From NCBI RefSeq assembly GCF_007993815.1, contig NZ_VJWE01000019.1:62001-126000 (forward strand): a DNA stretch of 64,000 bases. The letters run 5' to 3'. The notes under the pieces are model-generated. The model searched no databases. It saw nothing but the letters and a program-made list of their open reading frames with translations, and was not told where the DNA came from. Made by a program: the position numbers and the translations under genes. This document shows positions 1,556-61,219 of the stretch, one piece after another (positions within the stretch are counted from its first letter, which is position 1; each line of letters starts with the position of its first letter). The stretch is from Acidovorax delafieldii. GTDB lineage: Bacteria > Pseudomonadota > Gammaproteobacteria > Burkholderiales > Burkholderiaceae_C.

Positions 1556-2733
1556 AGAAACAACGACTCACCGTTCTCGGTTCCACCGGCTCCATCGGGA
1601 CCAGCACGCTGGATGTGGTGGCGCGCCACCCTGAGCGCTTTGAGGTGTTTGCGCTGAGTGCGGCGACGCAAGTGGATCTCTTGCTGGCGCAGTGCGCGCA
1701 GTTTCGCCCGCGTTATGCTGTGATGGCCAGCGCCCCGCACGCTGCTGCCTTGGCTGAAAAATTGCAGGCCAATAGCCTTCCAACGCAAGTCATTCAATCG
1801 CAAGATGCTCTTGAAGTGATAGCGTCACACGATGAAGTGGATGCCGTGATGGCTGCCATCGTGGGGGCGGCCGGTCTTGCGCCCTGTCTGGCTGCGGCCC
1901 GCGCAGGCAAACGACTGCTGCTGGCCAATAAGGAGGCCCTGGTGGTGGGCGGCGGGTTGTTCATGCAGACCGTGCGCGACGGTGGCGCCACGTTGCTGCC
2001 CATTGACAGCGAACACTCGGCCATCTTCCAGTGCTTGCCAGAAGACCCTGCCACTTGGTCTGACCGGGTGGACAGCATCCTGCTCACAGCCTCGGGCGGC
2101 CCGTTCCGCCAGCGGGACCCTTCCACGCTGGCGCAGATCACCCCTGACCAGGCCTGCGCGCACCCCAACTTCTCGATGGGACGCAAGATTTCCGTGGATT
2201 CGGCCACGATGATGAACAAGGCCCTGGAGGTCATTGAGGCCCGCTGGCTGTTTGATCTGCACCCGGACCAGATCAAGGTGGTCATCCACCCGCAGCAGAT
2301 CATCCATTCGATGGTTCAGTTCAAGGACGCCTCCATCCTGGCGCAGCTGGGTACGCCCGACATGCGAGTGCCCATTGCCTGCGGCCTGTCCTGGCCCGAG
2401 CGCATTACCAGCGGGGCCAGCAAGCTGGATTTCTCGACCCTGAGCGCCCTCGCGTTTGAAGACGCGGACGCCATTCGCTTCCCGGGCCTGCACCTGTCCT
2501 GGCAGGCGCTGAAGGCGGCCGAGGGGACCACTGCCGTGCTGAATGCGGCCAACGAGGTGGCGGTGGGCGCCTTTTTGTCGGGTCGGCTGCGTTTTGACCA
2601 TATTCATGCGGTCAACCTTGCAACTTTGGATGCAGTTTCGCCCTCCAAGCCCGATTCGCTCGCCGCGTTGCTGGATCTGGACACCCAGGCCCGCCATGCG
2701 GCTGAACATGTGGCGGGCCGTCTGGCTGCCTGA
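1552..2733 (+). CDS. dxr: 1-deoxy-D-xylulose 5-phosphate reductoisomerase
   Basis: NADPH-dependent enzyme that converts DXP to 2-C-methyl-D-erythritol 4-phosphate, the committed step of the MEP isoprenoid pathway that supplies UppS upstream. The 393-residue length is normal. The N-terminal Rossmann motif GSTGSIG is at residues 10-16, followed by LLANKEALV. The metal and substrate region has SEHSAIFQCL, the flexible-loop motif ASGGPFR, and HPNFSMGRKISVDSATMMNK. The start overlaps the cdsA stop by four bases. Codons for the variable segment around residues 77-91 coincide with one copy of a dispersed 44-bp AT-rich repeat (1780-1823), read on the opposite strand. Confidence 0.97.
   Translation: MKKQRLTVLGSTGSIGTSTLDVVARHPERFEVFALSAATQVDLLLAQCAQFRPRYAVMASAPHAAALAEKLQANSLPTQVIQSQDALEVIASHDEVDAVMAAIVGAAGLAPCLAAARAGKRLLLANKEALVVGGGLFMQTVRDGGATLLPIDSEHSAIFQCLPEDPATWSDRVDSILLTASGGPFRQRDPSTLAQITPDQACAHPNFSMGRKISVDSATMMNKALEVIEARWLFDLHPDQIKVVIHPQQIIHSMVQFKDASILAQLGTPDMRVPIACGLSWPERITSGASKLDFSTLSALAFEDADAIRFPGLHLSWQALKAAEGTTAVLNAANEVAVGAFLSGRLRFDHIHAVNLATLDAVSPSKPDSLAALLDLDTQARHAAEHVAGRLAA
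1780..1823 (-). repeat. 44-bp AT-rich dispersed repeat, copy in dxr
   Basis: Read on the minus strand this copy fits the whole spaced pattern GCTAT-N9-AGC-N5-GCG-N12-GCG. It lies wholly within dxr coding sequence, in a variable stretch before the conserved MAAIVGAAG segment. The dxr protein is not visibly longer than its homologues here. The similarity appears to run a further 10-12 bases to a second TAT-containing end. Confidence 0.6.
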
Positions 2734-2762
2734 CTGCCGGCCCACTCAGGAACCAACCATCC

Positions 2763-4127
2763 ATGCTGCTTACTATCGCTGCCTTCATCGTCGCCCTCGG
2801 TCTTTTGATCGCAGTGCACGAATACGGGCACTACCGCGTGGCGGTGGCCTGTGGGGTCAAGGTATTGCGGTTCTCTGTGGGTTTCGGCAAGCCGCTATTG
2901 CGCTGGCAGCCCCAGGGGTCTCCCACGGAGTTTGTGCTGGGAGCCTTCCCATTGGGGGGCTATGTGCGCATGCTGGACGAGCGAGAGGCACCCGTTGCCG
3001 CAGAGGAGCGGCATCTGGCCTTCAACACCCAGCCCCTGCGCTCGCGAGCAGCCATCGTTGCGGCTGGGCCCATCGCCAATTTGTTGTTGGCAGTGCTGCT
3101 GTATTCGGTGGTGAACTGGAACGGTGTCGAGGAGCCCCGAGCCATTCTGGCAAGCCCGGTCGCAGGCTCTGTCGCACACAGTGCCGGTTTGCGGGGCGGT
3201 GAACTGGTAGAGCAAGCCGCTTTGGGGGCAGAAGACCTGGAGCCAGTTCGTTCGTTTGAAGACCTGCGGTGGCTGCTGACCCGCGGTGCGCTTGAGGGGC
3301 TGAACGTGCGTCTTGACGTCCAGTCCGCCCATGGTGCGGGCCATCGTGAGGTTGTGCTCGACATGTCCCGGATCGACAGCCGTGAGGCTGATGCCCAGCT
3401 GTTTCGCAAGGTCGGCATCCTGGGACCTTGGACCCGCCCTGTGTTGGGCGAGGTCATGGCGCAAAGCGCGGCTGAGCGCTCGGGCCTGCGCCAAGGTGAT
3501 GTGGTGCTCAAGGTGGGGCAGACCGATGTGGTGGATGGGCAGCAACTGCGCGAGTTGATCCGGCAGTCTGTGCGGGGGAACGAGCCATTGGCGCAGCCTT
3601 GGCGCGTTGAGCGCGGTGGTCAGGTGATGACACTGGACGTGTTGCCCGAGGCTGTGACCGAACCGGCTAATACGGTGGGGCGCATTGGCGCCTACGTGGG
3701 AGCTGCACCAGAATTTGTCACGGTGGACTACGGGCTGGTCGATGGTCTGTGGGGTGGTGTGGTGAAGACCTGGGATGTGTCGCTGCTGACCCTGCGCATG
3801 ATGGGCCGCATGGTGATCGGCGAGGCGTCGCTCAAGAACCTCAGTGGCCCCTTGACCATTGCCGACTACGCAGGCCGCTCAGCCAGCATGGGGCTGACGC
3901 AGTACCTCATCTTTCTGGCGCTGATCAGTGTGAGCCTGGGGGTGCTGAACCTGCTTCCGCTGCCAGTCTTGGACGGTGGGCACCTGATGTATTATCTTTG
4001 GGAGGGTGTCACGGGCAGGGGTGTGTCGGACGCATGGATGGAGCGATTGCAGCGTGGAGGCGTTGCTGTCCTGCTTGTCATGATGTCCATAGCTCTGTTC
4101 AACGATATCACCCGGCTCTTTGGCTAA
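2763..4127 (+). CDS. rseP: Site-2 intramembrane metalloprotease RseP
   Basis: Inner-membrane zinc protease of 454 residues that makes the second cut in anti-sigma factor RseA during the sigma-E envelope stress response. The zinc motif HEYGH is at residues 19-23 in the first membrane segment. The distal metal-binding motif NLLPLPVLDGGH starts near residue 396 in a late membrane segment. Between them is a periplasmic region with two PDZ-like domains, the second recognisable around AAERSGLRQGDVVLKV. It sits between dxr and bamA, as in many Proteobacteria, which fits its role in monitoring outer-membrane assembly. Confidence 0.96.
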   Translation: MLLTIAAFIVALGLLIAVHEYGHYRVAVACGVKVLRFSVGFGKPLLRWQPQGSPTEFVLGAFPLGGYVRMLDEREAPVAAEERHLAFNTQPLRSRAAIVAAGPIANLLLAVLLYSVVNWNGVEEPRAILASPVAGSVAHSAGLRGGELVEQAALGAEDLEPVRSFEDLRWLLTRGALEGLNVRLDVQSAHGAGHREVVLDMSRIDSREADAQLFRKVGILGPWTRPVLGEVMAQSAAERSGLRQGDVVLKVGQTDVVDGQQLRELIRQSVRGNEPLAQPWRVERGGQVMTLDVLPEAVTEPANTVGRIGAYVGAAPEFVTVDYGLVDGLWGGVVKTWDVSLLTLRMMGRMVIGEASLKNLSGPLTIADYAGRSASMGLTQYLIFLALISVSLGVLNLLPLPVLDGGHLMYYLWEGVTGRGVSDAWMERLQRGGVAVLLVMMSIALFNDITRLFG

Positions 4128-4172
4128 CACTTTTGCCGCGCTTGCCCTGCAACTGCGGCTCCCGCTTCATTC

Positions 4173-6470
4173 ATGAAAAAACACATCAATCGCCTGGGCG
4201 TGCGTACCGCATCGGCCGTTGCAGCCATGATTTTTGCCGCCAATGCGGCATGGGCTCTGGAGCCATTCAAGGTGCAGGACATTCGCGTGGAGGGCTTGCA
4301 GCGTGTGGAGCCGGGTACCGTGTTTGCATCCATGCCCCTGCGGGTGGGTGACGACTACAACGACGAAAAAGGCGCCGCAGCAATTCGTACGCTGTTCGGC
4401 CTGGGACTCTTCAAGGATGTGCGCCTGGAGGCCAGCGGCAACGTTCTGGTGGTGGTGGTCGAAGAGCGCCCCACTGTCGCCGACGTGGACTTTGCCGGTG
4501 CCCGTGAATTCGACAAAGATGCGCTTAAAAAAGCCATGCGCGAAGTGGGCCTGACGGAAGGGCGTCCTTATGACAAGGCGCTCACCGACCGCGCCGAACA
4601 AGAGCTCAAGCGCCAGTACATCAACAAGAGCCTGTATGGCGCCGAGGTGGTGACCACGGTCACGCCCATCGAGCGCAACCGCGTTAACCTGACCTTCACG
4701 ATCACGGAAGGTGAGCCCGCACGCATCAAGGAAGTGCGCATCGTGGGCAACAAGGCGTTCAGTGAATCGACGCTCAAGGGCCTGTTCGACCAGGACACGG
4801 GGGGCTGGCTGAGCTGGTACACCAAGTCCGATCGCTACTCGCGCACCAAGCTCAACGCCGACCTTGAAACCCTGCGCTCGTATTACCTGCAGCGCGGCTA
4901 CCTGGAGTTCCGTGTGGACTCGACGCAGGTCGCCATCTCGCCGGACAAGCAGGACATCTCCATCACTGTCAATGTGACGGAAGGCGAACGGTATGTGGTG
5001 TCGGGCGTGAAACTCGAAGGCAACTATCTGGACCGCGAGGACGAGTTCAAGTCGCTGGTGACCATTCGCCCAGGTGAGCCCTACAACGCCGACCAGGTGA
5101 CTGAGACCACCAAGGCCTTCTCTGAGTATTTCGCCCGGTTTGGTTTTGCATTTGCCCGTGTGGAGGCTGTGCCCGAAATCGACCGCGAGAACAATCGTGT
5201 CAACTTTGTGCTGCAGGCCGAACCGGCACGCCGCGCCTACGTGCGCCGTATCAACGTCAGTGGCAACAACCGCACGCGTGACGAAGTCATTCGCCGTGAG
5301 TTCCGCCAATACGAGGCCTCCTGGTACGACGGCGACAAGATCCGCCTGTCCCGCGACCGCGTGGACCGTCTGGGCTTCTTCACGGAAGTGAACGTGGAAA
5401 CCCAGGAAGTGCCCGGCTCGCCCGACCAGGTCGATCTGGTGATCAACGTGGCAGAAAAGCCCACCGGCTCGTTGCAACTGGGTGTGGGTTTTTCCAGCGC
5501 CGAAAAAGCGTCTCTCTCGTTCGGTATCAAGCAGGAAAACATCTTTGGCTCGGGCAACTACCTGGGCATCGACGTCAACACGAGCAAGTACCGGCGCACA
5601 CTGGTGTTCAGCACCACCAACCCGTACTTCACGCCCGAAGGCATCTCGCGCACGCTCGATGTGTACTACCGCACCGACAAGCCCTATGAAGACCAGGGGG
5701 GCAATTACCAGCTGGTAACCACCGGGACCTCCGTGCGTTTTGGCGTGCCTTTCAGTGAGACCGACACGGTGTTCTTTGGCGGTGGGCTGGAGCAGACCCG
5801 CATCAAGCCCGGCACGAACATCCCGGCCACCTACCTGTTTTACGCAGACAAGTTCGGCTACAGCAGCACCTCGATTCCATTGACTGTGGGCTGGTCCCGT
5901 GACGACCGGGACAGCGCCTTGGCGCCCAACTCCGGCCGGTACCAGCGCCTCAATTCCGAATGGTCTGTGGCAGGCGATGCACGCTACGTGCGGGCCAACT
6001 ATCAGTACCAGCAGTACATCCCCCTCAACAAGCGCTTCACCATTGCGTTCAACGGCGAGGCCGGTTATGGCAAGGGCTTGAACGGCCGTCCGTTCCCGGT
6101 ATTCAAGAACTTCTACTCGGGTGGTCTGGGCTCGGTGCGTGGTTTCGACCAGGGCACCCTGGGACCACGTGATGTGACCGGGGCCTCGTTGGGTGGGCCC
6201 AAGAAGATCACGCTGAACACCGAGCTGATTGCTCCGTTCCCGGGTGCTGGCAATGACCGGACCCTGCGTGTGTTCACGTTCCTGGACGTGGGCAATGTGT
6301 ACGGCGAGAACGACAAAGTTACCTTCAGTGACATGCGTGCCTCCGTGGGCCTGGGGCTGAGCTGGATTTCGCCGCTCGGTCCCTTGCGTTTGGCGTTTGC
6401 GCAGCCAGTGCGCAAGTTCGCCGGCGATAGAATCCAGAAACTGCAATTCCAGATTGGAACGTCTTTCTAA
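4173..6470 (+). CDS. bamA: Outer membrane protein assembly factor BamA
   Basis: Omp85-family outer-membrane protein, the core of the BAM complex that folds beta-barrel proteins into the outer membrane. The 765-residue precursor has a signal peptide with likely cleavage after residue 28 (AAWA/LE). Five POTRA domains cover roughly residues 29-350, and a C-terminal beta-barrel begins near residue 425. The conserved barrel loop motif VRGF is at about residue 655, and the protein ends in the aromatic residue expected of outer-membrane barrels (final residues GTSF). Its stop shares one base with the skp start (TAATG), so it is probably translated together with its periplasmic chaperone. Confidence 0.98.
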   Translation: MKKHINRLGVRTASAVAAMIFAANAAWALEPFKVQDIRVEGLQRVEPGTVFASMPLRVGDDYNDEKGAAAIRTLFGLGLFKDVRLEASGNVLVVVVEERPTVADVDFAGAREFDKDALKKAMREVGLTEGRPYDKALTDRAEQELKRQYINKSLYGAEVVTTVTPIERNRVNLTFTITEGEPARIKEVRIVGNKAFSESTLKGLFDQDTGGWLSWYTKSDRYSRTKLNADLETLRSYYLQRGYLEFRVDSTQVAISPDKQDISITVNVTEGERYVVSGVKLEGNYLDREDEFKSLVTIRPGEPYNADQVTETTKAFSEYFARFGFAFARVEAVPEIDRENNRVNFVLQAEPARRAYVRRINVSGNNRTRDEVIRREFRQYEASWYDGDKIRLSRDRVDRLGFFTEVNVETQEVPGSPDQVDLVINVAEKPTGSLQLGVGFSSAEKASLSFGIKQENIFGSGNYLGIDVNTSKYRRTLVFSTTNPYFTPEGISRTLDVYYRTDKPYEDQGGNYQLVTTGTSVRFGVPFSETDTVFFGGGLEQTRIKPGTNIPATYLFYADKFGYSSTSIPLTVGWSRDDRDSALAPNSGRYQRLNSEWSVAGDARYVRANYQYQQYIPLNKRFTIAFNGEAGYGKGLNGRPFPVFKNFYSGGLGSVRGFDQGTLGPRDVTGASLGGPKKITLNTELIAPFPGAGNDRTLRVFTFLDVGNVYGENDKVTFSDMRASVGLGLSWISPLGPLRLAFAQPVRKFAGDRIQKLQFQIGTSF

Positions 6471-6991: not shown

Positions 6992-7015
6992 GCCGCTGCG
7001 CAAGACAGGTGGCGC

Positions 7016-9276: not shown

Positions 9277-10440
9277 ATGGCAGATTCCCCCCGCGTCGCC
9301 ATGGTGGCGGGCGAGACGTCGGGCGACTTGCTGGCGGGCTTGCTCATCGATGGCATGCAGGCGCATTGGCCCGGGCTGCAATCCTGCGGCATTGGCGGGC
9401 CGCAGATGGCGCGCCGCGGTTTTACTGCCTGGTGGCCCAGCGACAAGCTGGCAGTGCACGGCTACAGCATGGAGGTGCTGCGCCGGCTGCGCGAGCTGCT
9501 GGGTATTCGCAATCAACTGCGCGAGCGCCTGCTCAAGGACCGCCCCGACGTCTTCATCGGTGTGGATGCACCCGATTTCAACCTGGGCCTGGAGGCCGAT
9601 TTACGCGCTGCGGGCATCAAGACCGTGCATTTCGTGTGCCCGTCCATCTGGGCCTGGCGTGCGGATCGCGTCGACAAGATCCGCCGCAGCGCGGACCATG
9701 TGCTGTGCATCTTCCCGTTTGAGCCAGAGCTGCTCGCGCAGCACGGCATTGCCGCCACCTACGTAGGTCACCCGCTGGCGGGCGTGATTCCCATGGTGCC
9801 GGACCGTGCAGCCGCGCGTGCGCAATTGGGTCTGAAGGGTGAGGACGAAGTCCTGGCCATCCTGCCAGGGAGCCGCTCCTCCGAGATCCAGTACATTGCC
9901 CAGCCATTCTTTGAGGCTGCAGCGCTAATACTTAAAGCGCGACCAGCTATTAAATTGATAGTGCCTGCAGTGCCCGCACTGCGTGATCGCATCGAGCAGT
10001 TGGCGCGCGCGTGCGGTCTGGGCGATGCCTTGCAAATCACCACGGGCCAGTCGCACACGGTGCTCGCAGCGTGTGATGCCACGTTGATTGCCAGCGGCAC
10101 CGCGACGCTGGAGGCCGCGCTCTTCAAGCGGCCCATGGTCATCGGCTACCACATGCACCCGCTCAGCTGGTGGCTCATGCGCCGCAAGCAGTTGCAACCC
10201 TGGGTGGGTCTGCCCAACATCCTGTGCCGCGAGTTTGTGGTGCCCGAGCTGATCCAGGACGCCGCCGCGCCCCAGGCGCTTTGCGCAGCCACGCTGGACT
10301 GGCTGGATGCAAAGCGCCAAGATCCCCGAAAAATTGCAGCCCTGGAGCAGCGCTTTACGGCGCTGCACGAGAGCCTGCTGCGCAACACCCCCCAACTGGC
10401 TGCCGATGCGATCCAGAAAATCCTCGCTCCCGCTGCCTGA
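9277..10440 (+). CDS. lpxB: Lipid-A-disaccharide synthase
   Basis: GT19 glycosyltransferase that joins UDP-2,3-diacylglucosamine and lipid X into the lipid A disaccharide at the inner membrane. The frame could begin at a TTG overlapping lpxA, but ATG 9277 matches the family N-terminus ([17 protein letters not shown]) and gives 387 residues. Other markers are [22 protein letters not shown] and the C-terminal [14 protein letters not shown]. The stretch [17 protein letters not shown] is encoded by one of the 44-bp AT-rich repeat copies (9919-9962). The 3' end overlaps the likely rnhB start by 35 bases. Confidence 0.96.
9919..9962 (-). repeat. 44-bp AT-rich dispersed repeat, copy in lpxB
   Basis: On the minus strand it reads ACTAT-N9-AGC-N5-GCG-N12-GCG, one mismatch from the family pattern. 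Fourteen consecutive bases (TCAATTTAATAGCT) are identical, at the same offset, to the intergenic copy at 61176-61219. Its AT content contrasts sharply with the surrounding lpxB sequence. It is wholly coding. Confidence 0.7.
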
Positions 10441-11058: not shown

Positions 11059-11832
11059 ATGACCTCCTCGTCCGTGACCTCCATCCATTCCCGCGATAAC
11101 ACCTTCGTCAAGGATTTGCGCCGTTTGGCCCAGGATACGACGGCGTACCGCAAGCAGGGCCGTGTCTGGCTTGAAGGCGATCATTTGTGCCGCGCTGCGC
11201 TCGCACGGGGGCTGCGGGCATCGGTGGCGGTGTTTTCGGAGTCTTTTTGGCCGCAAGCGCAGGTGCAATATGCTGGTGCAGCTACAAAATTCATAGTCCT
11301 TGCCGATGCACTTTTTGCGGACGTGAGCGGACTGGAGTCGCCCGCCTCGATGGGCTTTGTCCTGGACTTGCCCGCACCGGCTTCACTCCAGCCCAATGCG
11401 CCCACCGTGGTGCTGGACAGGGTGCAGGACGCGGGCAATGTGGGTTCCATCCTGCGCAGCGCCTCGGCGTTCGGATTCCGCCAGGTGGCCGCCATCAAGG
11501 GAAGTGCCGCGCTGTGGTCGCCCAAGGTCTTGCGGGCTGGCATGGGGGCGCATTTCGCGCTGGACCTGATCGAGGGGCTGGCGCTGGACGACCTCGTTGC
11601 CCTGCAGGTGCCGCTGCTGGTCACCAGCTCGCATGCGGGTGACTTCCTGCACCGCGCCGCCTTGCCCTGGCCATGCGCCTGGGTGATGGGCCACGAAGGG
11701 CAGGGCGTCAGCCCGGCTCTGGAAGATAGGGCTTCGTTGCGCATCCGCATCGCCCAGCCCGGCGGCGAGGAGTCGCTGAACGTGGCGGCGGCTGCGGCCA
11801 TCTGCCTGCACGCGAGCGGAGCAGGGCGCTGA
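11059..11832 (+). CDS. SpoU/TrmH-family RNA 2'-O-methyltransferase
   Basis: SAM-dependent trefoil-knot (SPOUT) methyltransferase of 257 residues, probably acting on rRNA. Residues 1-85 are a substrate-binding domain (KDLRRLAQDTTAYR, VWLEGDHLCRAAL) like that of RlmB/TsnR relatives. The three SpoU motifs follow: VVLDRVQDAGNVGSILRSA near residue 115, WVMGHEGQG, and EESLNVAAAAAI at the C-terminus. The exact target nucleotide cannot be read from sequence. It lies 20 bases after rnhB. One 44-bp AT-rich repeat copy (11254-11297) falls in the linker between the two domains. Confidence 0.9.
   Translation: MTSSSVTSIHSRDNTFVKDLRRLAQDTTAYRKQGRVWLEGDHLCRAALARGLRASVAVFSESFWPQAQVQYAGAATKFIVLADALFADVSGLESPASMGFVLDLPAPASLQPNAPTVVLDRVQDAGNVGSILRSASAFGFRQVAAIKGSAALWSPKVLRAGMGAHFALDLIEGLALDDLVALQVPLLVTSSHAGDFLHRAALPWPCAWVMGHEGQGVSPALEDRASLRIRIAQPGGEESLNVAAAAAICLHASGAGR
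11254..11297 (-). repeat. 44-bp AT-rich dispersed repeat, copy in the SpoU-family gene
   Basis: On the minus strand it reads ACTAT-N9-AGC at the start and GCGCTTG at offset 37. The central GCG is shifted. It shares AATTTTGTAGC-like sequence with the minus-strand copy in addA (52975-53018). It falls between the N-terminal domain and the SPOUT core. Confidence 0.55.
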
Positions 11833-21975: not shown

Positions 21976-22806
21976 ATGATCTGGCAAACCTCTCGCTTCG
22001 CAATTGACTTGGTCCGTCCCCAGGTCATGGGCATCGTCAACGTCACTCCTGATTCTTTCTCCGACGGTGGGCGCCATGGCTCCACGGCTGCTGCGCTACG
22101 GCATTGCGAACAGCTGTTGAAAGAGGGCGCAGATATTTTGGATATCGGTGGTGAGTCCACTCGCCCGGGCAGCCCTGCTGTGCCGCTGGATGAGGAGCTG
22201 TCTCGTGTCGTTCCCTTGGTGCGTGAGGCTGTGGCGCTGGATGTCCCGATTTCGGTGGACACCTACAAGCCGGAGGTCATGCGCGCTGTGCTGGATCTGG
22301 GGGCTGACATCGTCAACGACATCTGGGCCCTGCGGCAGCCAGCAGCTGCGGCAGTGGTGGCTGCGTACCCGCAGTGTGGTGTGTGCCTGATGCATATGCA
22401 CCGCGACCCGCAGACCATGCAACAGGCGCCTATGGGGGGTGATGTGGTACCTCAGGTGCTATCATTTTTGCAGCTGCAGGCGCATAATCTACTAGCGCTT
22501 GGGGTCGAAAAGGCTCGTATCCTGCTGGATGCGGGCATTGGTTTCGGCAAAACGGTGGAACAGAACTTTGCGTTGCTGGCACGACAGTCCGAGCTATTGG
22601 CAGCTGGCTACCCGCTGCTGGCGGGATGGTCGCGCAAGTCATCGCTGGGCACGATCACAGGGCTGGAGGTGAGCCAACGCATGGTACCCAGTGTGGCCGC
22701 CGCTTTGCTCGCGGTGGAGCGGGGCGCGTCGGTAGTGCGTGTGCACGATGTACGCGAGACGGTGGCGGCACTGGCAGTGTGGTCTGCGATGCAGCGATCT
22801 GGCTGA
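21976..22806 (+). CDS. folP: Dihydropteroate synthase
   Basis: TIM-barrel enzyme that joins p-aminobenzoate to 6-hydroxymethyl-7,8-dihydropterin diphosphate in folate synthesis; the sulfonamide target. The ATG at 21976 yields 276 residues (MIWQTSRFAIDL). The hallmark motifs are PQVMGIVNVTPDSFSDGG and DILDIGGESTRPGS. LLDAGIGFGKT and LLAGWSRKSSLG follow. The order ftsH-folP-glmM is widely conserved. Codons for the helix around residues 162-175 coincide with a complete 44-bp AT-rich repeat copy (22458-22501) without evident extra residues. Confidence 0.97.
   Translation: MIWQTSRFAIDLVRPQVMGIVNVTPDSFSDGGRHGSTAAALRHCEQLLKEGADILDIGGESTRPGSPAVPLDEELSRVVPLVREAVALDVPISVDTYKPEVMRAVLDLGADIVNDIWALRQPAAAAVVAAYPQCGVCLMHMHRDPQTMQQAPMGGDVVPQVLSFLQLQAHNLLALGVEKARILLDAGIGFGKTVEQNFALLARQSELLAAGYPLLAGWSRKSSLGTITGLEVSQRMVPSVAAALLAVERGASVVRVHDVRETVAALAVWSAMQRSG
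22458..22501 (+). repeat. 44-bp AT-rich dispersed repeat, copy in folP
   Basis: A complete match to GCTAT-N9-AGC-N5-GCG-N12-GCG. It aligns without gaps to the sense-strand copy in addA (54673-54716), both carrying GGCGCAT in the middle and AGCGCTTG at the end. It is entirely coding, in a variable surface helix. Confidence 0.7.
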
Positions 22807-44570: not shown

Positions 44571-45891
44571 TGGCTCGCCAGAGCATGGCGACGAACAGCA
44601 GTGCGGTGACTGCGAGCGCCGCCGCGCTGGCCGCCCAGAAGGGAGTGGGCGAAGCCACACCCGACCAAGGCCCGATGCCTCCATAAGCCAGCCAATAGCC
44701 GCCCGCCAGGCCAGCCCCCCACAGCAGCGCGCAGTACACCACCAGTGGCGCCAGCGTGATGCGGTAGCAGCGCAGCACAAACACGCACAGCGTCTGCACC
44801 GCATCGGCAGCGTGGTACGCCGCCACCCAGACCAGCACCGTGCCGGCCACGGCTGCCACGCTGGCGTTGTCGGTGTAGATCTGGCTGATCGAGTGTCTTG
44901 CTATCAATAGAATAGCTGCCAAGGCAATACCCACTAGCGCAGCGAGCGAAAAACCCATCAAAACCACCTGACGGGCTCGCTGGGGCTGCTGTGCGCCCAG
45001 CCAGTAGCTCACCCGCGCGCTGGTGGCGATGGACAGCGACAGCGGCACCATGTAGAGCACGGCAGCCATGTTGGCGGCGATCTGGTGGGCGGCCGCCGAG
45101 GTGGTGCCCTGGCGCGCGATGAACAAGGCCATCAGGGTGAAGGAGGTCACCTCCACCATCACGGCCAGGCCTGCTGGAACGCCGAGCCTGGCAAAGCCTG
45201 CAATCGTGGGCCAGTGCGGGGGCTCCATGCGGCGCCACAGCCCCAGGGGGGTGTAGATGTCCTGCGTGCGCAGCAGCCACACAGCCAGCGCCAGCATGCT
45301 GCAGTTGACGACCAGCGTTGCCCAGGCGCAGCCCACCACCCCCTGCGCGGGCAGGCCCCCGCCGCCAAAGGTGAACCACACCGACAGCGGCAGCTTGATC
45401 AGCAGCGAGCCCACCTGCAGCCAGGTGACCAGACGCGGATGCCCCAGGGCCTGGTTGAGGGTGCTGTAGATCCGGAACAGCAGGGCGGGTGCGAGTGCCA
45501 GTGCCAGCACAGCCAGGTAGTTTTCTACCTGCGGGCGAAGCGCAGGGGGTACTTCCGTCCAGCGCAGCAGCGCGCCTGGCGATAGCAGCACCGCCATGCC
45601 CACCACTGAAGCAGCAGCGCACAGGTACAAGGCCTGTCGCAGTGATCGGCCTACGGCCTCAGGCTGTTGCGCGCCGCGCTGTTCGGCCCACACGGGGAGG
45701 AGTGCCTGCAGCACGCCGATCAGCGCGACGTACACACTGATGAAGATGGCCGACCCTACGGACAGCGCGGCCAGCGACGATTCGCTGTAGCGCCCCGCCA
45801 CGATGGTGTCCGTCACCCCGAAGGCCATGACCGCCAATTGCCCCGCCAGCACGGTCACGGCGTGCCGGGTGATGGTGGACAGCTCCGACAT
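44524..45891 (-). CDS. MATE family multidrug efflux transporter
   Basis: Inner-membrane cation-coupled exporter of 455 residues with about twelve hydrophobic segments in two related halves. Family motifs include AVTVLAGQLAVMAFGVTDTIVAGRYS at the N-terminus and the conserved region between helices 6 and 7. The frame is open upstream, but the start at 45891 (MSELSTITRHAVTVL) fits the family and overlaps the preceding stop by one base (TGATG). The 3' end overlaps phoR by 47 bases tail to tail. A 44-bp AT-rich repeat copy lies in it (44900-44943). Substrate unknown. Confidence 0.9.
   Translation of the reverse strand: MSELSTITRHAVTVLAGQLAVMAFGVTDTIVAGRYSESSLAALSVGSAIFISVYVALIGVLQALLPVWAEQRGAQQPEAVGRSLRQALYLCAAASVVGMAVLLSPGALLRWTEVPPALRPQVENYLAVLALALAPALLFRIYSTLNQALGHPRLVTWLQVGSLLIKLPLSVWFTFGGGGLPAQGVVGCAWATLVVNCSMLALAVWLLRTQDIYTPLGLWRRMEPPHWPTIAGFARLGVPAGLAVMVEVTSFTLMALFIARQGTTSAAAHQIAANMAAVLYMVPLSLSIATSARVSYWLGAQQPQRARQVVLMGFSLAALVGIALAAILLIARHSISQIYTDNASVAAVAGTVLVWVAAYHAADAVQTLCVFVLRCYRITLAPLVVYCALLWGAGLAGGYWLAYGGIGPWSGVASPTPFWAASAAALAVTALLFVAMLWRAISPARKNPANGWPGK
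44900..44943 (+). repeat. 44-bp AT-rich dispersed repeat, copy in the MATE gene
   Basis: GCTAT-N9-AGC at the start and AGCGC at offset 36 match the family. The middle GCG is AGG. It aligns gap-free to the folP copy, sharing GCTATCA, AGCTGC and ACTAGCGC. It is antisense to the gene and entirely coding. Confidence 0.65.
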
Positions 45892-49979: not shown

Positions 49980-52649
49980 GTGACAGAAACCAATCCCACG
50001 TTCACCGGTGTGGCCGGGTCTTGCGACGCTATGACAGTCATAGCGAAAAGCGATCAAACCAGTGGATTTGCGGCCGCAAGCACCGCCCTGTGGCAAAGCG
50101 CACTGGCCCAGGTGGCCGCGCATGCCCAAGCCCATGGTGCTCACTTGGCGCGCACGGTGGTGCTGGTGCCCTACGCCCAGCTCATGCCCTGGGCGCAGCG
50201 CCATTGGGTTCAGCAGTTCCCGCAGAGCTTTGCACCACGTTTTGAAACCACCCGCAACTGGGCCCGCCAGCTGCAAGCGTTTGAGCCCACGGGCGACGAC
50301 CTGGCGGGCGACGTTGCGCGCGACACGCTCACCGCCCGCACCTTGCTCGATCGCGTGGGGCAGGGCGGGCAGCGCGAAGTGCTGGCCACGCCACTGCAGG
50401 AGGCTGCAGCCCAATTGGCCCCGGTGATTGCTGCCGTGTCCCCAGCCCTACGTGCTGCCTGGGGTGACGAGGCTAGGAAGCTGCTGGCCACGCCGGAAGA
50501 AGGTACCGCCCTGCATTACGAGGCCCTGGTGGCTCGCCTGGCGCTGGAATGGGCACTGGCATCGCGCTACGCGACCGACGTGCTTTTTGAGCCCGGCGTT
50601 CGCGGGGCGGTGGATGCGCTGGTGGTGCTGGAGGGATTTCAGTCTGACACGCTGACCCGGGCTCTGCAGGCGCATTGGGGCGAACAAGGTTTGTGCATTG
50701 CACTCCCCGCGTTGGTCGGTGATGCGGGTTCACCACCGCAGTGGGCCCTGCACGCCGCAACGGACGCCGAAGACGAGGCGCACCGTGCTGCGGCCTGTGT
50801 GCTGCGTCATGTCGAGCAGGGGCGGGTGCCCGTGGCCCTCGCGGCCACTGACCGCGCACTGATCCGCCGCGTCCTGGCCCACCTGGACAGCAGTGGCGTA
50901 TTGGTGCGCGACGAAAGCGGCTGGATTCTGTCCACCACGCGCGCCGCTTCACGGGTCATGGCCGTGCTGCAGGCCGCTGCGTGGAATGCCTCTTCCAACG
51001 AGGTGCTGGACTGGGTCAAACACACCCCAGCGCTGATGCCTGGCGAGGTCAATCGCCTGGAGCAATGGCTGCGCAAAGGTGTGGTGCAGCACTGGAGCGC
51101 CGCCGCCCAGTGGGGTTTGAAGGGCGACGTGGGTGCGCAGCCCCACCTGGCCCGCACCGTGGCCACCGTAGAAGCATGGCGCAACACCCTGCGCGCTGCA
51201 CGGCCGCTGGCGCAGTGGCTACCCGCTTTGCGCACGGTGCTGGAGCAGGCCGGCCAATGGCAGGGTCTGCAGGCCGACCCTGCTGGCATGCGGGTGCTGG
51301 CCGCCCTGCGCCTTCAGGACGGTCAGCAGTCAGAGCTGGACGGCTGGGGCGACAGTGCGGGCCGCCGCATGACATTGGCCGAATTCACCCGTTGGGCCAA
51401 AGACGTGCTGGAGGCCGGGCGCTATGTGGCCGCGCAGGCGGCTGGTGCCCCCGTGGTGGTGGTGCCTATGCCGCAACTGCTGGGCCGCCCTTTCGCCGCC
51501 GCCGTGTTGCCGGGTTGCGACGAAAAGCGCCTGCAACCTGCTCCCGAACCCGCTGGCGACTGGACACAGGCCCAGCGCGAGGCATGGGGCCTGCCTACGC
51601 GCCAGTCGCTGGAGGCTGCCCAGCGTGCCGCCTGGGCCCATGCCCTGCGCACGCCGGTGGTGGATGTGCTGTGGCGCACCGGTGACGAAGGCGGTGAGCC
51701 CCTGCTGGCCAGCGCGCTGGTGCTCGCCCTGCAGCTGCATCGTGCCGCCCTGCCGGGAGCCGATGAGCGCGGTGCGCGCGAGGTGGTCGCCACTCCCACG
51801 CTACGCCCCTTGCCCGTGGGCCAGGCGCTGCCGGTGACCCACCTGTCATCCACGGCGTATTCCGATTTGCGCCACTGTCCTTACCGCTTCTTTGCCCAGC
51901 GCCAACTGGGCCTGCGCGAGGCCGACGAGCTGGATGCCGAAGTGGACAAGCGGGACTTTGGCACCTGGCTGCACGCGGTACTGCAGCATTTTCATGAAGC
52001 CTTGCTGGCGGAGCCGACCGATGGTCTGGATGAGCGCCGCGTGCGCATGGACGCCGCCGCCGAGGCCGTCACCCGCGAGCAGCGTTTGCAGGACGGCGAC
52101 TTTCTGCCCTTTGCCGCGGGCTGGACGCAACTGCGCGACGGCTACCTGCAATGGCTGGCAGGGCATGAGCAACAGGGCGCCACCTTCCGCCAGGCCGAGT
52201 TCAAGGCCCGTCAGCCGCTGGGCGATCTGGAACTCATCGGCACCATCGACCGCATCGATGGGGTCTCGTCCACCGGCGAGCCTGCGGTACTGGTGATTGA
52301 CTACAAGACCGAAAGCGACAGCGTGACCCGCCAGCGCATCAAGTCCGGTGCGGAGGACACCCAACTTGCTTTTTACGCAGCCTTGTTGAGCCACGACACC
52401 CTGCGAGCGGCTTATGTCAACGTAGGCGAGCGCGGCGAGACACAGCTGCACGAACAAGACGAGGTGGTGCACCTGCGCGATGTGCTCATCGAAGGCATCC
52501 AGCACGACATGGCCCGCATCGCCGCCGGCGCGCCGCTGCCCGCGCTGGGCGAGGGATCGGTGTGCGAGTTCTGCGCCGTGCGCGGCCTGTGCCGCAAGGA
52601 CTACTGGGCGGACGCTGAACAGGCGTTGCCCGCGCAAGAGACGCCATGA
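49980..52649 (+). CDS. addB: AddB-like PD-(D/E)XK nuclease subunit
   Basis: Predicted subunit (889 residues) of an AddAB-type nuclease-helicase that resects double-strand breaks for recombination. The N-terminal half is a degenerate UvrD-like helicase. The C-terminal nuclease has GTIDRID and [10 protein letters not shown]. Four cysteines fit the AddB iron-sulfur cluster: one in LRHCPYRFF (about 633) and three in [10 protein letters not shown] (about 862, 865, 871). The start is uncertain: GTG 49980 lacks a good ribosome site, and ATG 50031 gives 872 residues. The stop overlaps the addA-like ATG by four bases. Confidence 0.85.
50028..50071 (+). repeat. 44-bp dispersed repeat, divergent copy at the start of the addB-like gene
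   Basis: GCTAT-N9-AGC-N5-GCG matches the first three anchors. The last anchor is displaced by five bases (GCG at 50070). The first 19 bases, CGCTATGAC-A-GTCATAGCG, are also a perfect inverted repeat (50027-50045) that includes the alternative ATG start. Membership in the family is tentative. Confidence 0.35.
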
Positions 52650-55600
52650 CCGAGAGCCATTCCCCACCCGCCCAGGCCGCTTACGAACACAACGGCCGCC
52701 CCGTATCGCGCGAGGCCTTCTACGCCATCGCCTGTGACCCCGCGCGCAGCGTGGCGGTGGAGGCCTGCGCCGGTGCGGGCAAGACCTGGATGCTGGTTTC
52801 GCGCATGCTGCGGGCGCTGCTCGACGGCTGCGCGCCGCACGAAATCCTGGCCATCACCTTCACCAAGAAGGCGGCCGGGGAGATGCGCCAGCGTTTGCAG
52901 GAGTGGCTGGAGCAGTACAGCCACAAGCCGCTCGAAGAACTCACTGCCGAGCTGATTGCAAGGGGAATCAGCCCCCAAGGTGCACTGGAAAAGCGCGAGG
53001 CGCTACAAAATCTATACCGCCAGCTGCTCACTGCAGGCCGCCCGGTGCAGATCCGCACCTTCCACAGCTGGTTTGCCGCGCTGCTGGGCACGGCGCCGCT
53101 GGCGCTGCTGCAACAACAAGACCTGCCCGCGCACTTTGAGCTGCTCGAAGACGATGCCGAGGCGGTGCGCGAGGTCTGGCCCCCGTTTCTGCAGACCGTG
53201 GCCGACAGCGCCAGCCTGCGTGCCGACTACGAAGCCGTGGTGGCCCGCCATGGCCGCTCGCAAACGCACAAGGCCCTGGCAGCGGCGCTGGCCAAGCGGG
53301 TGGAGTTCGATCTGGCCGACGAGGCGGGCGTGGTGGATGCCTCGGTGCCGCCGTTCCAGCAGGCCTACCCCGAACTGGCCGCGTTGGCCGAGCCCGCCGA
53401 TGCTTTGCAGACCGACGCTGCTCTTCAGCGCTGGCGCAGCCGTGCCAGCGCGCTGGGCGCCGAGGCCAACAAGACCCCCCAAAAGGCGGCCGACGCCATC
53501 ATCGACGCGCTGGGCTGCACCGACCTGAACCAGCGCCTGGACCAATTGCGCCGTGCGATGTTCGTGGCCAAGGAAGACCGCCTCTCCAAGAACCTCGAGA
53601 AGTTCCCCGCTGCGCAAGAAGCCGAGCCCGAGCTGCAGCGCCTGCTCACCGCCCGCCGCCAGCACGAGGCCTGGCAGCACCAGCAGCGCATGGCCCGGCT
53701 GGCGCGTTGCCTCATCGCGCAGTTTGTGGCCGTCAAGCAGCAGCACGGCTGGGTGGACATGAACGATGTGGAGCGCACGGCCCTGGTCATGCTGGCGGAC
53801 CCGGTGCTGTCGGGCTGGGTGCAGGAGCGGCTCGATGCCCGCATTCGCCACCTGCTGGTCGACGAGTTTCAGGACACCAACCCGCTGCAGTGGCAGGCGC
53901 TGCACGCCTGGCTGTCGGGCTATGCGGGCTCGGGCGGCGGGTCTACCGCGCCCAGCGTGTTCATCGTGGGCGACCCCAAGCAGAGCATCTACCGCTTTCG
54001 CCGCGCCGAGCCGCAGGTGTTCATCGCCGCGCAGGCTTTTGTGCGCGATGGGCTCGGTGGGGACCTGCTGAGCTGCGACCACACACGCCGCAACGCGCAG
54101 GGCGTGATCGGCGCCGTCAACGCCGTGATGGGCGAGGCCCAGGCGCAGCACGAAACGAGTGGTTTTCGTGATCACACCTCCGAATCCAAACACCCCGGCC
54201 AGTTGCTGCGCCTGCCCGCCATCACCGATGCGGACGACGACAGCCAAGGCGCAGCCCGCGACGCCCTGGCCTGGCGCGACAGCCTGACCGAACCCCGGCA
54301 CGAGGCCGAAGAAACCCAGCGCATGCGCGAATGCACCCAGGCCGCCGCCTGGGTGGCCGCGCAGATCGCCAGCGGCACGCCGCCCAAGGAGGTGCTGGTG
54401 CTGGCCCGCAAGCGCGACCGCCTGGCCAGCATGCAAGACGCCCTGCGCGCCCTGCACCTGCCCTGTGTGCAGCCCGAAAAAGCCGACCTGTTTGACGCGC
54501 CCGAGGTGCAGGACATGGTGGCGCTGCTCGACGCGCTGGTGTCGCCCACACACGACTTGTCTTTGGCCCGCGCGCTCAAGTCACCCCTGTTTGGCCTGGG
54601 CGACGACGCGCTGGTCGCGCTGGCGTTGTTGCGCCGCCAGCCGGAACACGCGGGCTGTAGCTGGTTTGAGTTGCTATTGAAAAGTGAGCTTGTGGCGCAT
54701 GAATATCAAGCGCTTGGAGCCGTTTTGGCCCAATATCAGACGTGGGTGGGTACTTTGCCGCCCCACGACGCGCTGCACACCATTTACGAACACGGTGACG
54801 TGCTGGCCCGCTTCGCTGCCGCAGCACCGGTCACCCAGCGCCAGTCCGTGCAGGCCAATCTGCGCGCACTGCTGGCGGCATCGCTGCAGCACGACGGGGG
54901 GCGTTACCTCACGCCCTATGCCTTTGTGCGGGCCATGAAAAAGGGCGGTGTGCGCGCCCCAGGCCGGGCGGATGCGCAGGCCATCCGCTTGCTGACGGTG
55001 CACGGTGCCAAGGGGCTGGAGGCCGATTGCGTGCTGCTGCTCGATACCGACACCCGTCCACAAAAGGCCGAGACCATGGGCGTGCTGGTGGACTGGCCTG
55101 GCGAGCAGGCCGTGCCGTCTGCCTTCGTCTTTTTGGCCAGCGAATCGACCCCCCCACCCAGCGCAGTGGATGCGCTCGCCGCCGAGCAGCAGGCCCGCAG
55201 CCGCGAGGAACTGAACATGCTCTACGTGGCCATGACGCGTGCCAAGCATTGCCTGGCCCTGTCGTCTGTGCAGCCCGGTAACTCGGCCCCCGGCAGTTGG
55301 TGGAATCGGCTCGCTCCCTTGGTCACTGAAGTGGACACGCAGGCGTTGGCCCCCGCAGAACATGCCGTGGCGGCCGTAGCGCCCGCCCAGACCTTCACCA
55401 TCCCCTGCCTGCCCGCGCTGCCCGAGGCGCTGCAAAGTGCGCGCGTGCAAACCGATGCGGGATTGCCGGGCGACAGCCCTGTGGCCATGCCGGGCGACGG
55501 AGAGTCCACCCCCTTGTCGCGCCAGGGCGATGCCATGCACCAGCTGCTGGAGCAAGCCGGCGTGGCTGGTGCCCCACTGGCCGACTTGCGCGCCCAGGGT

Positions 55601-57649: not shown

Positions 57650-57663
57650 GAAAGAAGAAGTTG

Positions 57664-57755
57664 ACGAGCCTTACCCCCGGCACTGACTCCACAGTTAGGG
57701 CTGCTTGGTTCCCCACCTGACCCGGTTGGCCGCTTCACCATGCGAGGAGGCCCGT
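57664..57755 (-). ncRNA. ffs: Signal recognition particle RNA (4.5S RNA, small bacterial type)
   Basis: About 92 bases on the minus strand with the conserved domain IV: GGGTCAGGTGGGGAACCAAG followed by CAGCCC. This has the tetraloop and asymmetric internal loop that bind Ffh. The termini pair perfectly (ACGGGCCT at the 5' end with AGGCTCGT at the 3' end), which sets the boundaries given. Its place just upstream of dnaX, in the opposite direction, is a known arrangement in Betaproteobacteria. Ends are accurate to a few bases. Confidence 0.9.
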
Positions 57756-57858
57756 CACCGCTGATTGTACGTCGGATGGAGGCCCTGATTTTTCAGTGGC
57801 TGTTTTGTTTGCCCTGGTGGCGCCAGGGGCGCATGGCCCAGCCCGTAGAATCGACCGC

Positions 57859-59907
57859 ATGTCCTACCTCGTGCTCGCCCGCAAGTACCGTCCCCGCAAT
57901 TTCACCGAGATGGTGGGGCAGGAACATGTGGTCCAAGCCTTGTCGAATGCGCTGACCCAGCAGCGCCTGCACCACGCCTACCTGTTTACCGGTACGCGCG
58001 GCGTGGGCAAGACCACGGTGTCGCGCATCCTGGCCAAGTCGCTCAACTGCCAGGGGGCGGACGGCAATGGCGGCATCACCGCTACGCCCTGCGGCGTGTG
58101 CCAGGCCTGCACCGACATCGACAGCGGCCGCTTTGTGGACTACACCGAGCTGGACGCGGCCTCCAACCGGGGCGTGGACGAAGTGCAAAGCCTGCTGGAG
58201 CAGGCGGTCTACAAGCCGGTGCAGGGGCGCTTCAAGGTCTTCATGATCGACGAAGTGCACATGCTGACCAACACGGCGTTCAACGCCATGCTCAAGACGC
58301 TGGAAGAGCCGCCTGAGTATCTCAAGTTTGTGCTGGCCACGACCGACCCGCAGAAGGTGCCGGTCACGGTGCTGAGCCGCTGCCTGCAGTTCAACCTGCG
58401 CCCCATGGCGCCTGAAACCGTCCTCTCGCACCTCACGCAGGTGCTGGCGACCGAGAACGTGCCTGCCGAGCCCCAGGCGCTGCGCTTGCTCTCACGCGCT
58501 GCGCGGGGCTCCATGCGCGATGCACTGTCGCTGACCGACCAGGCCATTGCCTTCGGTAGCGGCCAGCTGCAGGAAGCCGGTGTGCGCCAGATGCTGGGTG
58601 CGGTGGACCGCTCCTATGTGTTCCGGCTCATCGAAGCGCTCGCCCAGGGTGACGGGAAAACCGTGGTGGAGACCTCGGACACTCTGCGCATGAACGGGCT
58701 GTCTGCCGCCTCCACGCTCGAAGAGATGAGTGCCGTACTGCAGCGCATGGCCGTGTTCCAGGCCGTGCCCCAGATGGCAGGTGCCGTGGACGCAGATGAC
58801 CCCGAGGCTGCTGAAACAGCCCGCCTGTCTGCACTGATGCCCGCCGATGAAACGCAGTTGCTCTACAGCCTGTGCCTGCACGGGCGCGGCGAGTTGGGCC
58901 TGGCGCCCGACGAGTACGCGGCACTCACCATGGTGCTGCTGCGTCTGCTGGCCTTCAAGCCTGCCAGCGGCGTCGGCGAATCGGCTGAAAAAAAAACTCT
59001 GACGCGGGCTGAAACGCCCCCCTCAGGCGCTGTTGCATCAACTGCAGCAGCCCCTGCTGCAGTGGTGGCCACGCCAGGGCCTGTGGGAGGGGCAGCGGTG
59101 AAGCCCCCCCAGGCCCTGCCTGTGCCGTCGGCGCCTGCAGCTCCGGTGCGTGCTGCCCCGCCAGTCCCGTCTGCGGCCCCCGCGCCTGCAGTCCCGGCCC
59201 CCGTTCCGGCAGTGGCTGCAGGCACCGCATCTTCTGGCGCCGGAGACCATCCATCAGAGTCGTTCAACGATTCTGAGCCACCTCCATGGCCGGGTTCTGA
59301 CGAGTCCGGTACGGTGACCACTGCGGCTGCGCCCGCTGCCACGGCGTTGCCGGTACGCACCACCGAGAGGTTTGATCAAAATCCCGGTGTAGCGCAATCA
59401 TTCAAAGCACAGAATGCTCCTGAATATGTAGCAATCCCAGTGCGTGAGTCCCCGGAGCCCGGCGAACGGTTGCAGCCGCTTCCACTGTCTGCCCCGACCC
59501 CGGTATCTGCCCGCTACACCCCCACCGAAGAGGGGGACGTCTGGCATGCCACGGTGCAGCAACTGGTGGCAGCAGAGGCCATCACGGCGCTGGTGCGCGA
59601 ACTGGCCCTGCAGTCACAGCTGGTGGCGCGCGACGGTGGTCACTGGCTGTTGCGCGTCGAGCGCGAGTCGCTCAACCAGCCCACGGCGCGCGAGCGCCTG
59701 CGTGCGGCCCTTGAAGCTGCGGGCCATGCGACCCAGATCAGCGTGGAAGTGGGCGTGGTCATCGACAGCCCCGCCCGTCGCAACGCCGCCGCCGCCGCCG
59801 AGCGCCAACGCCGCGCGGAAGAAATCGTGCACAACGATCCCTTCGTGCAATCGCTGATGCGTGACTACGGCGCGAGAATCGTGCCGGGCAGTATCAAACC
59901 TGCATGA
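57859..59907 (+). CDS. dnaX: DNA polymerase III subunits gamma and tau
   Basis: AAA+ clamp-loader ATPase, 682 residues for tau. The frame is open upstream, but MSYLVLARKYRPRNF is the family N-terminus. Walker A GTRGVGKT is at residues 45-52, the zinc module uses LNC and PCGVCQAC, Walker B is FMIDEVHML, and the sensor arginine region is TVLSRCLQF. Domain III ends near residue 370. A Pro/Ala-rich linker and a C-terminal domain that should bind the alpha and DnaB subunits follow. Nine A residues at 58988-58996 could give a truncated gamma form by slippage. A 44-bp repeat copy lies in the linker. Confidence 0.96.
   Translation: MSYLVLARKYRPRNFTEMVGQEHVVQALSNALTQQRLHHAYLFTGTRGVGKTTVSRILAKSLNCQGADGNGGITATPCGVCQACTDIDSGRFVDYTELDAASNRGVDEVQSLLEQAVYKPVQGRFKVFMIDEVHMLTNTAFNAMLKTLEEPPEYLKFVLATTDPQKVPVTVLSRCLQFNLRPMAPETVLSHLTQVLATENVPAEPQALRLLSRAARGSMRDALSLTDQAIAFGSGQLQEAGVRQMLGAVDRSYVFRLIEALAQGDGKTVVETSDTLRMNGLSAASTLEEMSAVLQRMAVFQAVPQMAGAVDADDPEAAETARLSALMPADETQLLYSLCLHGRGELGLAPDEYAALTMVLLRLLAFKPASGVGESAEKKTLTRAETPPSGAVASTAAAPAAVVATPGPVGGAAVKPPQALPVPSAPAAPVRAAPPVPSAAPAPAVPAPVPAVAAGTASSGAGDHPSESFNDSEPPPWPGSDESGTVTTAAAPAATALPVRTTERFDQNPGVAQSFKAQNAPEYVAIPVRESPEPGERLQPLPLSAPTPVSARYTPTEEGDVWHATVQQLVAAEAITALVRELALQSQLVARDGGHWLLRVERESLNQPTARERLRAALEAAGHATQISVEVGVVIDSPARRNAAAAAERQRRAEEIVHNDPFVQSLMRDYGARIVPGSIKPA
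58988..58996 (+). promoter_or_regulatory. A9 slippery run in dnaX (gamma/tau switch)
   Basis: Nine consecutive A residues follow codon 376 and are read GAA-AAA-AAA-ACT in the tau frame. A -1 shift reaches TGA at 59010-59012, making a protein of about 384 residues. A +1 shift, or loss of one A, reaches TGA at 59000-59002, about 380 residues. The position, just after clamp-loader domain III, is where gamma ends in other bacteria. Confidence 0.65.
59389..59432 (-). repeat. 44-bp AT-rich dispersed repeat, copy in the dnaX linker
   Basis: On the minus strand GCTAC-N9-AGC and a GCGCT at offset 37 fit the family; the middle anchor is GTG. It resembles the dxr copy, sharing GAGCAT and TTGAATGA at nearly the same offsets. 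It lies in the variable Pro/Ala-rich linker. Confidence 0.45.
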
Positions 59908-60498: not shown

Positions 60499-60534
60499 CT
60501 CGTTCCTCACATCTTTCCTGCATCGCTCGTTTCC

Positions 60535-61125
60535 ATGTCCACCACCAACTCCCTCGACGTTCTGATCCAGGCGCTGCGCCGGTTGCCGGGAGTGGGGGTG
60601 AAGTCTGCGCAGCGCATGGCGTTCCATCTGCTGCAGCATGATCGCGAAGGGGCGCAGGCCCTGTCGCGGGCGCTCTCGGAAGCGGTGGGCACGGTGCACC
60701 ACTGCGCGCGTTGTCATACGTTCACCGAGGCGGAGGTGTGCAGCACCTGTCTGGACCCTGACCGCGATGCCACGCGGCTGTGCGTGGTGGAGACGCCCGC
60801 TGACCAGTCTGCGCTGGAGCGCACGGGGGCCTTCAAGGGGTTGTACTTCGTGTTGATGGGGCGGCTCAGCCCGCTCGATGGTGTCGGTCCCAAGGAGATC
60901 GGCCTGCACAAGCTCATGGAGCGCGCCACGGATGGCACCGTTCAGGAGGTGATCCTGGCCACCAACTTCAATGCCGAGGGGGAGGCGACTGCGCATGTGA
61001 TCAGCGAGGCCCTGAAGAGCCGTGGGTTGCATGTCACGCGGCTCGCGCGCGGCGTGCCTGTCGGCAGTGAGCTGGAGTACGTGGACCTGGGAACGATCGC
61101 GCATGCGCTGGTGGATCGCCGGTGA
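60535..61125 (+). CDS. recR: Recombination mediator protein RecR
   Basis: Ring-forming DNA-binding protein of 196 residues that helps RecF and RecO load RecA at gaps. An N-terminal helix-hairpin-helix ([20 protein letters not shown]) is followed by a zinc finger ([15 protein letters not shown] with STCLD). A Toprim domain ([17 protein letters not shown]) and the C-terminal Walker-B-like segment ([18 protein letters not shown]) complete it. It lies downstream of ybaB beyond a repeat-filled gap. Confidence 0.96.
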
Positions 61126-61175
61126 CGCCAGGGCGCCTGCCAGCCCGTCGTCCCGACAATGTCTGCGGCTAAAAT

Positions 61176-61219
61176 ACTCTCAATTTAATAGCTACCAGCG
61201 CTTGTATTTGCTGCGCTGT
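61176..61219 (+). repeat. 44-bp AT-rich dispersed repeat, intergenic copy
   Basis: AGC, GCG and GCG fall at the family offsets; the first anchor is ACTCT. Bases TCAATTTAATAGCT are identical to the lpxB copy at the same offset. It is the only copy outside a gene, lying between recR and the MAPEG gene and ending 20 bases before the latter's start. Confidence 0.6.

Follow-up and report, generated by a model that had tools for sequence, protein, structure and literature searches.

How can one sequence recur through gene after gene of a bacterial chromosome while the genes keep their length? The question is raised by a 64,000-bp stretch of Acidovorax delafieldii DNA (hereafter the window; G000:C9:62001-126000, from a genome of 5.02 Mb in 18 contigs), in which an initial annotation had listed ten related AT-rich sequences of 44 bp, nine of them inside genes. 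We found that eight of the ten sites are strong copies of an element that is about 64 bp long rather than 44 bp and that very probably constitutes a genome-wide, DNA-level binding site for a protein. Within genes, the DNA-level constraint acts on codon choice beyond what synonymous chance allows.

All ten sites fit the short spaced pattern by which they had been recognized, with 0-3 mismatches and three of them exactly (1784, 22458 and 54673). This pattern alone is weak evidence, barely above shuffled sequence: at up to three mismatches it has 24 matches in the window compared with 14.6 ± 4.25 after shuffling, and 3 of 100 shuffles reached 24. Aligned copies, by comparison, are gap-free with conserved columns from about -2 to 63, and the weak dyad symmetry suspected earlier is visible around column 31 of the consensus. 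A profile built from the genome's own copies gave scores of 36-63 at the eight strong sites, left 52975 as a degenerate member (its addA orthologue scores 21-31 in nine of ten relatives) and removed 50028 from the family (Table 1). Seven of the strong copies are genic and the one at 61176 is intergenic, so that the earlier proportion of nine in ten holds only in part; the normal length of the host genes and the occurrence of copies in either orientation to the gene were both borne out.

Table 1 Element copies in the window, together with the one listed site that lies outside the family
Feature	Position	Strand	Remarks
Copy in dxr (gene 1552-2733, +)	1760..1823	-	Profile score 47.8; gene named by NCBIfam
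Copy in lpxB (9256-10440, +)	9899..9962	-	Score 42.6 (own profile) or 61 (pooled profile); other genera have it at the same codons
Copy in TrmH/RlmB-like RNA methyltransferase gene (11059-11832, +)	11234..11297	-	Score 56.8; family match of the gene below cut-off
Copy in folP (21886-22806, +)	22458..22521	+	Score 63.2; in-frame TAG position is CAG
Copy in MATE-family transporter gene (44524-45891, -)	44900..44963	+	Score 55.5; PF01554; present in 11/11 genomes with the block
Degenerate copy in addA (52646-56155, +)	52955..53018	-	Score 7 with own profile, 16-24 pooled
Copy in addA	54673..54736	+	Score 60.7; in-frame TAG position is GAG; present in 11/11 genomes
Copy in dnaX (57796-59907, +)	59369..59432	-	Score 36.1
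Intergenic copy	61176..61239	+	Score 47.6; stops at ATG 61240, likely start of a MAPEG-family gene (PF01124)
Site in addB-like gene, no family member	50028..50067	+	Score -19.0; range of -15 to -33 for the orthologues of ten relatives

Beyond the window, the profile identified 64 copies with scores of at least 30, and only two more between 12 and 30, in 458,479 bases from two contiguous blocks of the same genome (window included). The copies used for training came from the very blocks that were scanned, and the controls used the same profile: no copy appeared in the reversed sequence or with column-shuffled profiles over the same 458,479 bases. A longer pattern matched 24 places in the whole genome and none in its reversed control, so that the scan against controls for which the initial annotation had called beforehand came out at 64 versus 0 and 24 versus 0. 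A sequence-only covariance model scored 150 among 1904 candidate places genome-wide, all 150 with E values of at most 2.7e-10, and extrapolation by length from the 458 kb suggests a genomic total of about 700 copies. The element carries about 51-69 bits of information, and the GC content of its 64 copies averages 0.45 (range, 0.36-0.55). Mean identity between copies is 54%, with a single pair above 78% whose members lie 3.7 kb apart, and we saw no sign of recent wide copying. Nearest-neighbor identity was slightly higher than in column-shuffled copies (0.691 versus 0.654), possibly reflecting correlation between columns or some shared descent.

The evidence for codon-level constraint comes from the 21 of 64 copies that lie wholly within predicted genes in our final gene set. 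When their codons were resampled synonymously according to genome codon usage, the observed match to the element was never reached (0 of 21,000; z = 4.0-8.1 across 21 of 21 copies), and an earlier gene set with 20 gene-internal copies gave z = 3.5-7.9. Third-position GC is 0.38 in the gene-internal sites compared with 0.83 in genes. The consensus contains a TAG at columns 13-15, which is missing in 11 of the 64 copies; in the two genes that would read it in frame, addA and folP, another base stands in place of the T (Table 1), as the open reading frame requires, and neighboring columns vary there too. Relative to their genes, 8 of the 21 copies are in the same orientation and 13 in the opposite one. 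We made three gene-call sets ourselves, which placed 20, 16 and 21 copies inside genes; the first is wrong around the MATE gene, the second cut back gene starts where elements lie and the third lacks folP.

Comparison with relatives indicates that the gene-internal copies are an overlay on existing codons and not insertions, as the initial annotation had proposed; equal-length orthologous sites and GC-rich codons in non-carriers support it. From 20 genomes of the genus we took the 20 kb orthologous to window positions 3300-23299. The elements in lpxB and the methyltransferase gene occupy the same codons in 16 of the 20 as well as in the window genome, and the folP element does so in 15 of those 16. 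The remaining four (G165, G192, G162 and G169) lack the element throughout this region and encode near-identical LpxB and methyltransferase segments at a site GC of 69-76%, compared with 42-59% in carriers; folP was not found in their 20-kb regions. Together with the resampling, these four genomes answer the proposed orthologue check, namely whether the codons are simply conserved protein sequence. We also compared site lengths, taking coding and intergenic sites together, among 11 genomes with blocks of 60-64 kb and another ten with 20 kb each. Where both members of an ordered pair have the element, the lengths agree to the base in 1198 of 1250 cases; where the target lacks it, they do so in 248 of 281. 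Aligned gene-internal sites showed no length change between genomes. At one apparently coding site, point changes account for loss or gain of the element, and G158 shows an intermediate state. Most of the unequal cases with an element-less target (24 of 33) come from a single intergenic locus between genes that we take to be pstB and phoU, where 3 of 11 genomes have the longer gap.

At this locus the element-bearing allele is about 80 bp longer and occurs in G171 (L114) and in G163 (L113) and G164 (L111), not in G158 or G180. On a tree of lpxB, however, G158 and G180 group with G171, a distribution which suggests that the allele was exchanged between species.

Along the chromosome the copies are far from evenly divided among contexts. 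Gaps between convergent genes hold 13 copies (2.0 expected) and those between tandem genes 29 (6.6 expected), whereas the 21 copies inside genes compare with 53.9 expected. For divergent gaps we can say only that they are not enriched, with one copy in each of the three gene sets compared with 2.5, 2.8 and 1.3 expected. Copies are spaced around 7.2-7.4 kb apart and more evenly than random positions (coefficient of variation, 0.70 versus 0.96-0.99; P about 0.001 or less), with 2 intervals below 1 kb compared with 8-9 at random. No bias between leading and lagging strands was detected, the leading strand being assigned from local GC skew (30/27 in G164, 34/38 in G004), and we therefore rejected a replication-polar motif such as KOPS (FtsK orienting polar sequences) or Chi.

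Within the element, AAAA and TTTT interchange at columns 50-53, and TpA steps are rare in the all-AT tetramers found there (0/43, 1/54 and 4/59 in three species). An A-tract with few TpA steps is the pattern that would be expected if a protein reads the shape of the duplex from either strand. The strongest mutual information lies mostly between neighboring columns; several distant pairs are also high (10-24, 21-42, 26-42 and 41-57), but they form Watson-Crick pairs about as often as expected or less. RNAalifold found no base pair in the consensus of 32 copies, and Rfam 15 gave no match on a copy in window positions 40-64 kb, which include the degenerate copy and four strong ones, or at nine loci. 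We make no claim of an AT/GC period of two helical turns (21-22 bp), since the strongest Fourier peaks fall at 23-25 or 7.5-8 bp.

The element also differs in dialect between species. At column 26, 80% of copies here have A and 84% of those in G164 have T; at column 35, T stands in 61% here and A in 81% of those in G164, although carB is 94% identical between the two genomes; in FolP, the column-26 switch turns Ala-His into Ala-Leu. That many sites shift together may point to a shared reader whose preference has moved, or to a drive process. In relatives the element is a more perfect inverted repeat, AGCGCTT...AAGCGCT.

Counts based on the pattern, which underestimate both copies and dialects, placed the element in 41 of 47 genomes of the genus (34-610 matches each); the other six (G150, G156, G162, G165, G169 and G192) had 1-4 matches, which we treated as noise. 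A control pattern with altered spacing matched in three of the 47, once each. Across the family, 56 of 150 genomes had at least one match and 28 had at least 12, while the reversed control gave at most 5 in any one genome. Among 28 hand-picked genomes of other genera (24 with pattern matches and four without), G138 yielded no lpxB; of the remaining 27, 20 carry the lpxB copy on the same codons and seven do not (G007, G013, G022, G034, G088, G117 and G125). On the LpxB protein tree, built after masking the element, several genomes that lack the copy fall within groups of carriers, which suggests ancestry with repeated loss, on a single-gene tree read irrespective of support values and with a doubtful root (one intended outgroup member fell elsewhere).

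What would such a site do? We propose that a putative protein binds the fixed-length site of about 64 bp as double-stranded DNA, sensing both base sequence and A-tract shape. Selection or biased gene exchange would keep the site at some 700 chromosomal positions, and within genes it would arise by point substitution over existing codons. By analogy with known systems, we tentatively put forward as the most likely role a self-DNA tag for natural transformation, by which a cell would prefer DNA of its own kind and species would differ in dialect. A report on this group (PMC4212676) describes A. temperans and A. facilis as naturally transformable, A. temperans only by DNA of its own species, and selective DNA binding in Verminephrobacter. 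In the genome of A. temperans DSM 7270 the pattern matches 395 times (197+198).

Several points weigh against this reading. Third positions within the element show, overall, no more conservation than those in its flanks (0.55-0.67 versus 0.55-0.73), even if the core columns alone do (0.75-0.94, at 3-4 columns per gene). ComEC gave a match in all 47 genomes of the genus, 44 of them above the curated cut-off. Five of the six non-carriers are among those above it, and the sixth (G165) has a partial ComEC at the start of a contig; being found in carriers and non-carriers alike, ComEC is not diagnostic and leaves the presence or absence of the element unexplained, and we rejected it as a discriminator. 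At 64 bp and about 51-69 bits, the element greatly exceeds what recognition by a pilin would seem to call for. No receptor was found in a search limited to ComEA and ComEC; the best hits of the ComEA model TIGR00426 were nearly all open reading frames (ORFs) of about 800 amino acids, presumably Tex, and none exceeded the cut-off. A. defluvii has 451 pattern matches, yet no transformation was detected in this species according to the same report (PMC4212676). Failed chromosomal transformation across species could, moreover, stem from poor homology.

A close rival, which we consider possible rather than probable, gives the site a role in chromosome architecture: a nucleoid-associated oligomer would bind or wrap it, or a topoisomerase would prefer it, and the element would anchor or insulate supercoil domains of about 7 kb. 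The excess of copies in convergent and tandem gaps, with no such excess in divergent ones (1 versus 1.3 expected), their even spacing, the A-tract with few TpA steps and the lpxB copy shared by 20 of 27 genomes of other genera would all suit such a site; on the other hand, some lineages live without the element, its dialect shifts fast between close species and we know of no protein with a site of this kind. Chance, AT-rich composition or conserved protein sequence is scarcely credible as an account of the family. It holds for site 50028, and the short pattern alone lends it some room, but it fails for the eight strong sites in the face of empty reversed and column-shuffled controls, the resampling result and relatives that encode near-identical protein with no element.

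Two further explanations would place the element in mobile DNA or in RNA. Repetitive extragenic palindromic (REP)-like repeats, spread by a single-copy Y1 transposase of the REP-associated tyrosine transposase (RAYT) type, are an improbable source, despite Y1_Tnp matches in 44 of the 47 genomes of the genus, an element overlapping the 3' end of the transposase gene in five of nine carriers examined, the variable length of the pstB-phoU gap, the many A. defluvii copies within what look like integron cassettes and the slight excess of nearest-neighbor identity, which leaves some relatedness possible. The transposase matches in all six non-carriers, while the three genomes that have no match (G179, G183 and G189, all less than 91% complete) carry the element. 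Nor do unchanged lengths at aligned gene-internal sites, the lone copy pair above 78% identity, the lack of a consensus fold, pairing near expectation at correlated distant columns or positions conserved across genera agree with such spread. A structured RNA, terminator or other transcript-level element is less probable still. The many copies between tandem or convergent genes and the more perfect inverted repeat of relatives would fit it; RNAalifold and Rfam, over the copies given above, lend it nothing, correlated distant columns hardly pair above expectation, gene-internal copies occur in both orientations and A and T exchange strands in the tract.

The Y1 transposase gene lies at G000:C1:129611-130336 (protein beginning MARLPRL; orthologues at L192-L204), and most genomes have one match. 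We found no element within the 16-kb transposase regions of four non-carriers. G194 has 37 Y1_Tnp matches, mostly 153-amino-acid ORFs of equal score, compared with 0-3 in the other 46 genus genomes.

Among known systems, the protein-read site most resembles the DNA uptake sequences (DUS) and uptake signal sequences (USS) of Neisseriaceae and Pasteurellaceae, which likewise number in the hundreds, lie on either strand within genes as well as between them and differ in dialect from species to species; USS also share the even spacing. Known uptake sequences are about 10-29 bp long, however, compared with about 64 bp here, where the uptake role is predicted, and the element is sparser, at roughly one per 7 kb. 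Competence, a further likeness, has been reported in the Acidovorax group (PMC4212676).

The highly iterated palindrome HIP1 of cyanobacteria is also a DNA-level word laid over coding sequence in very many places, although it is an 8-bp palindrome and the present element is long, degenerate and weakly dyad. REP sequences and bacterial interspersed mosaic elements (BIMEs) with RAYT share the hundreds of short inverted-repeat-like copies, the Y1 transposase gene and the many positions at gene ends. They differ in that about a third of the element copies lie in genes with no change of length, that positions are conserved across genera and that the transposase is present also where the element is absent; we rejected membership of this class, as 21 of 64 copies are genic rather than extragenic and no conserved hairpin was found. 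An insertion-type mobile repeat, such as a miniature inverted-repeat transposable element (MITE) or a Rickettsia palindromic element (RPE), was rejected as well, since carriers are not longer (equal length in the 248 of 281 comparisons with an element-less target). RPEs do lie inside protein-coding genes, but they add protein length and the Acidovorax element does not.

The nearest printed repeat is BRE, a beta-proteobacterial repeat of Bordetella and Comamonadaceae with some copies within coding sequence, described (PMC3110155) as about 90 bp, 69% GC on average in Bordetella, tandem at some loci and present in 1-29 copies in the listed genomes. By that description alone, the element is set apart by its GC content (0.45 versus 69%) and size. 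A search of open-licence PMC papers found no description of the element, and sequence strings gave nothing related; its absence from print is not established.

Taken as a whole, we lean towards a picture of hundreds of fixed, shape-coded 64-bp protein-binding sites laid over core genes whose length they leave unchanged, with at least one copy (lpxB) at the same codons in many genera, a joint shift of dialect between sister species and wholesale absence in some lineages. If true, a DNA-reading system, for self-recognition or as a chromosome scaffold, would bend the choice of amino acids in enzymes such as FolP, and a DNA-level message would constrain protein-coding sequence at many sites in a widespread bacterial family; we know of no other such system of this size and positional stability. 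Sequence-specific transformation, as reported for Acidovorax and Verminephrobacter, would become testable with a defined DNA candidate, and lineages that lack the sites would serve as natural knock-outs for finding the reader protein. Analyses of codons and GC content in Comamonadaceae core genes would, by the same token, include a signal that is not of protein origin and call for caution.

A BLAST search with one consensus, which has low sensitivity, found the element in 3 of 72,556 plasmid records and in 0 of 50,697 phage records. The Diaphorobacter plasmid NZ_CP049911.1 has it in two places, one of them at cobN (107811-107876; 88% identity to one consensus), and two other Comamonadaceae plasmids have one element each. 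In A. defluvii DSM 12644 (L205; G196:C1:1-20000), a cassette-like array includes ORFs of AadA-like and small multidrug resistance type, together with several units of about 320 bp that are poor in ORFs, and has 12 strong element copies in its first 8 kb; we take it for an array of integron cassettes from its attC-like ends.

Two further features of the window lie apart from the element. A gene for the small bacterial signal recognition particle RNA (Rfam RF00169) adjoins dnaX at window positions 57660-57756 on the minus strand. At 24294-29665, also on the minus strand, two neighboring ORFs contain long direct repeats that are 72-80% identical over 300-nt stretches and lie 2417 bp apart.

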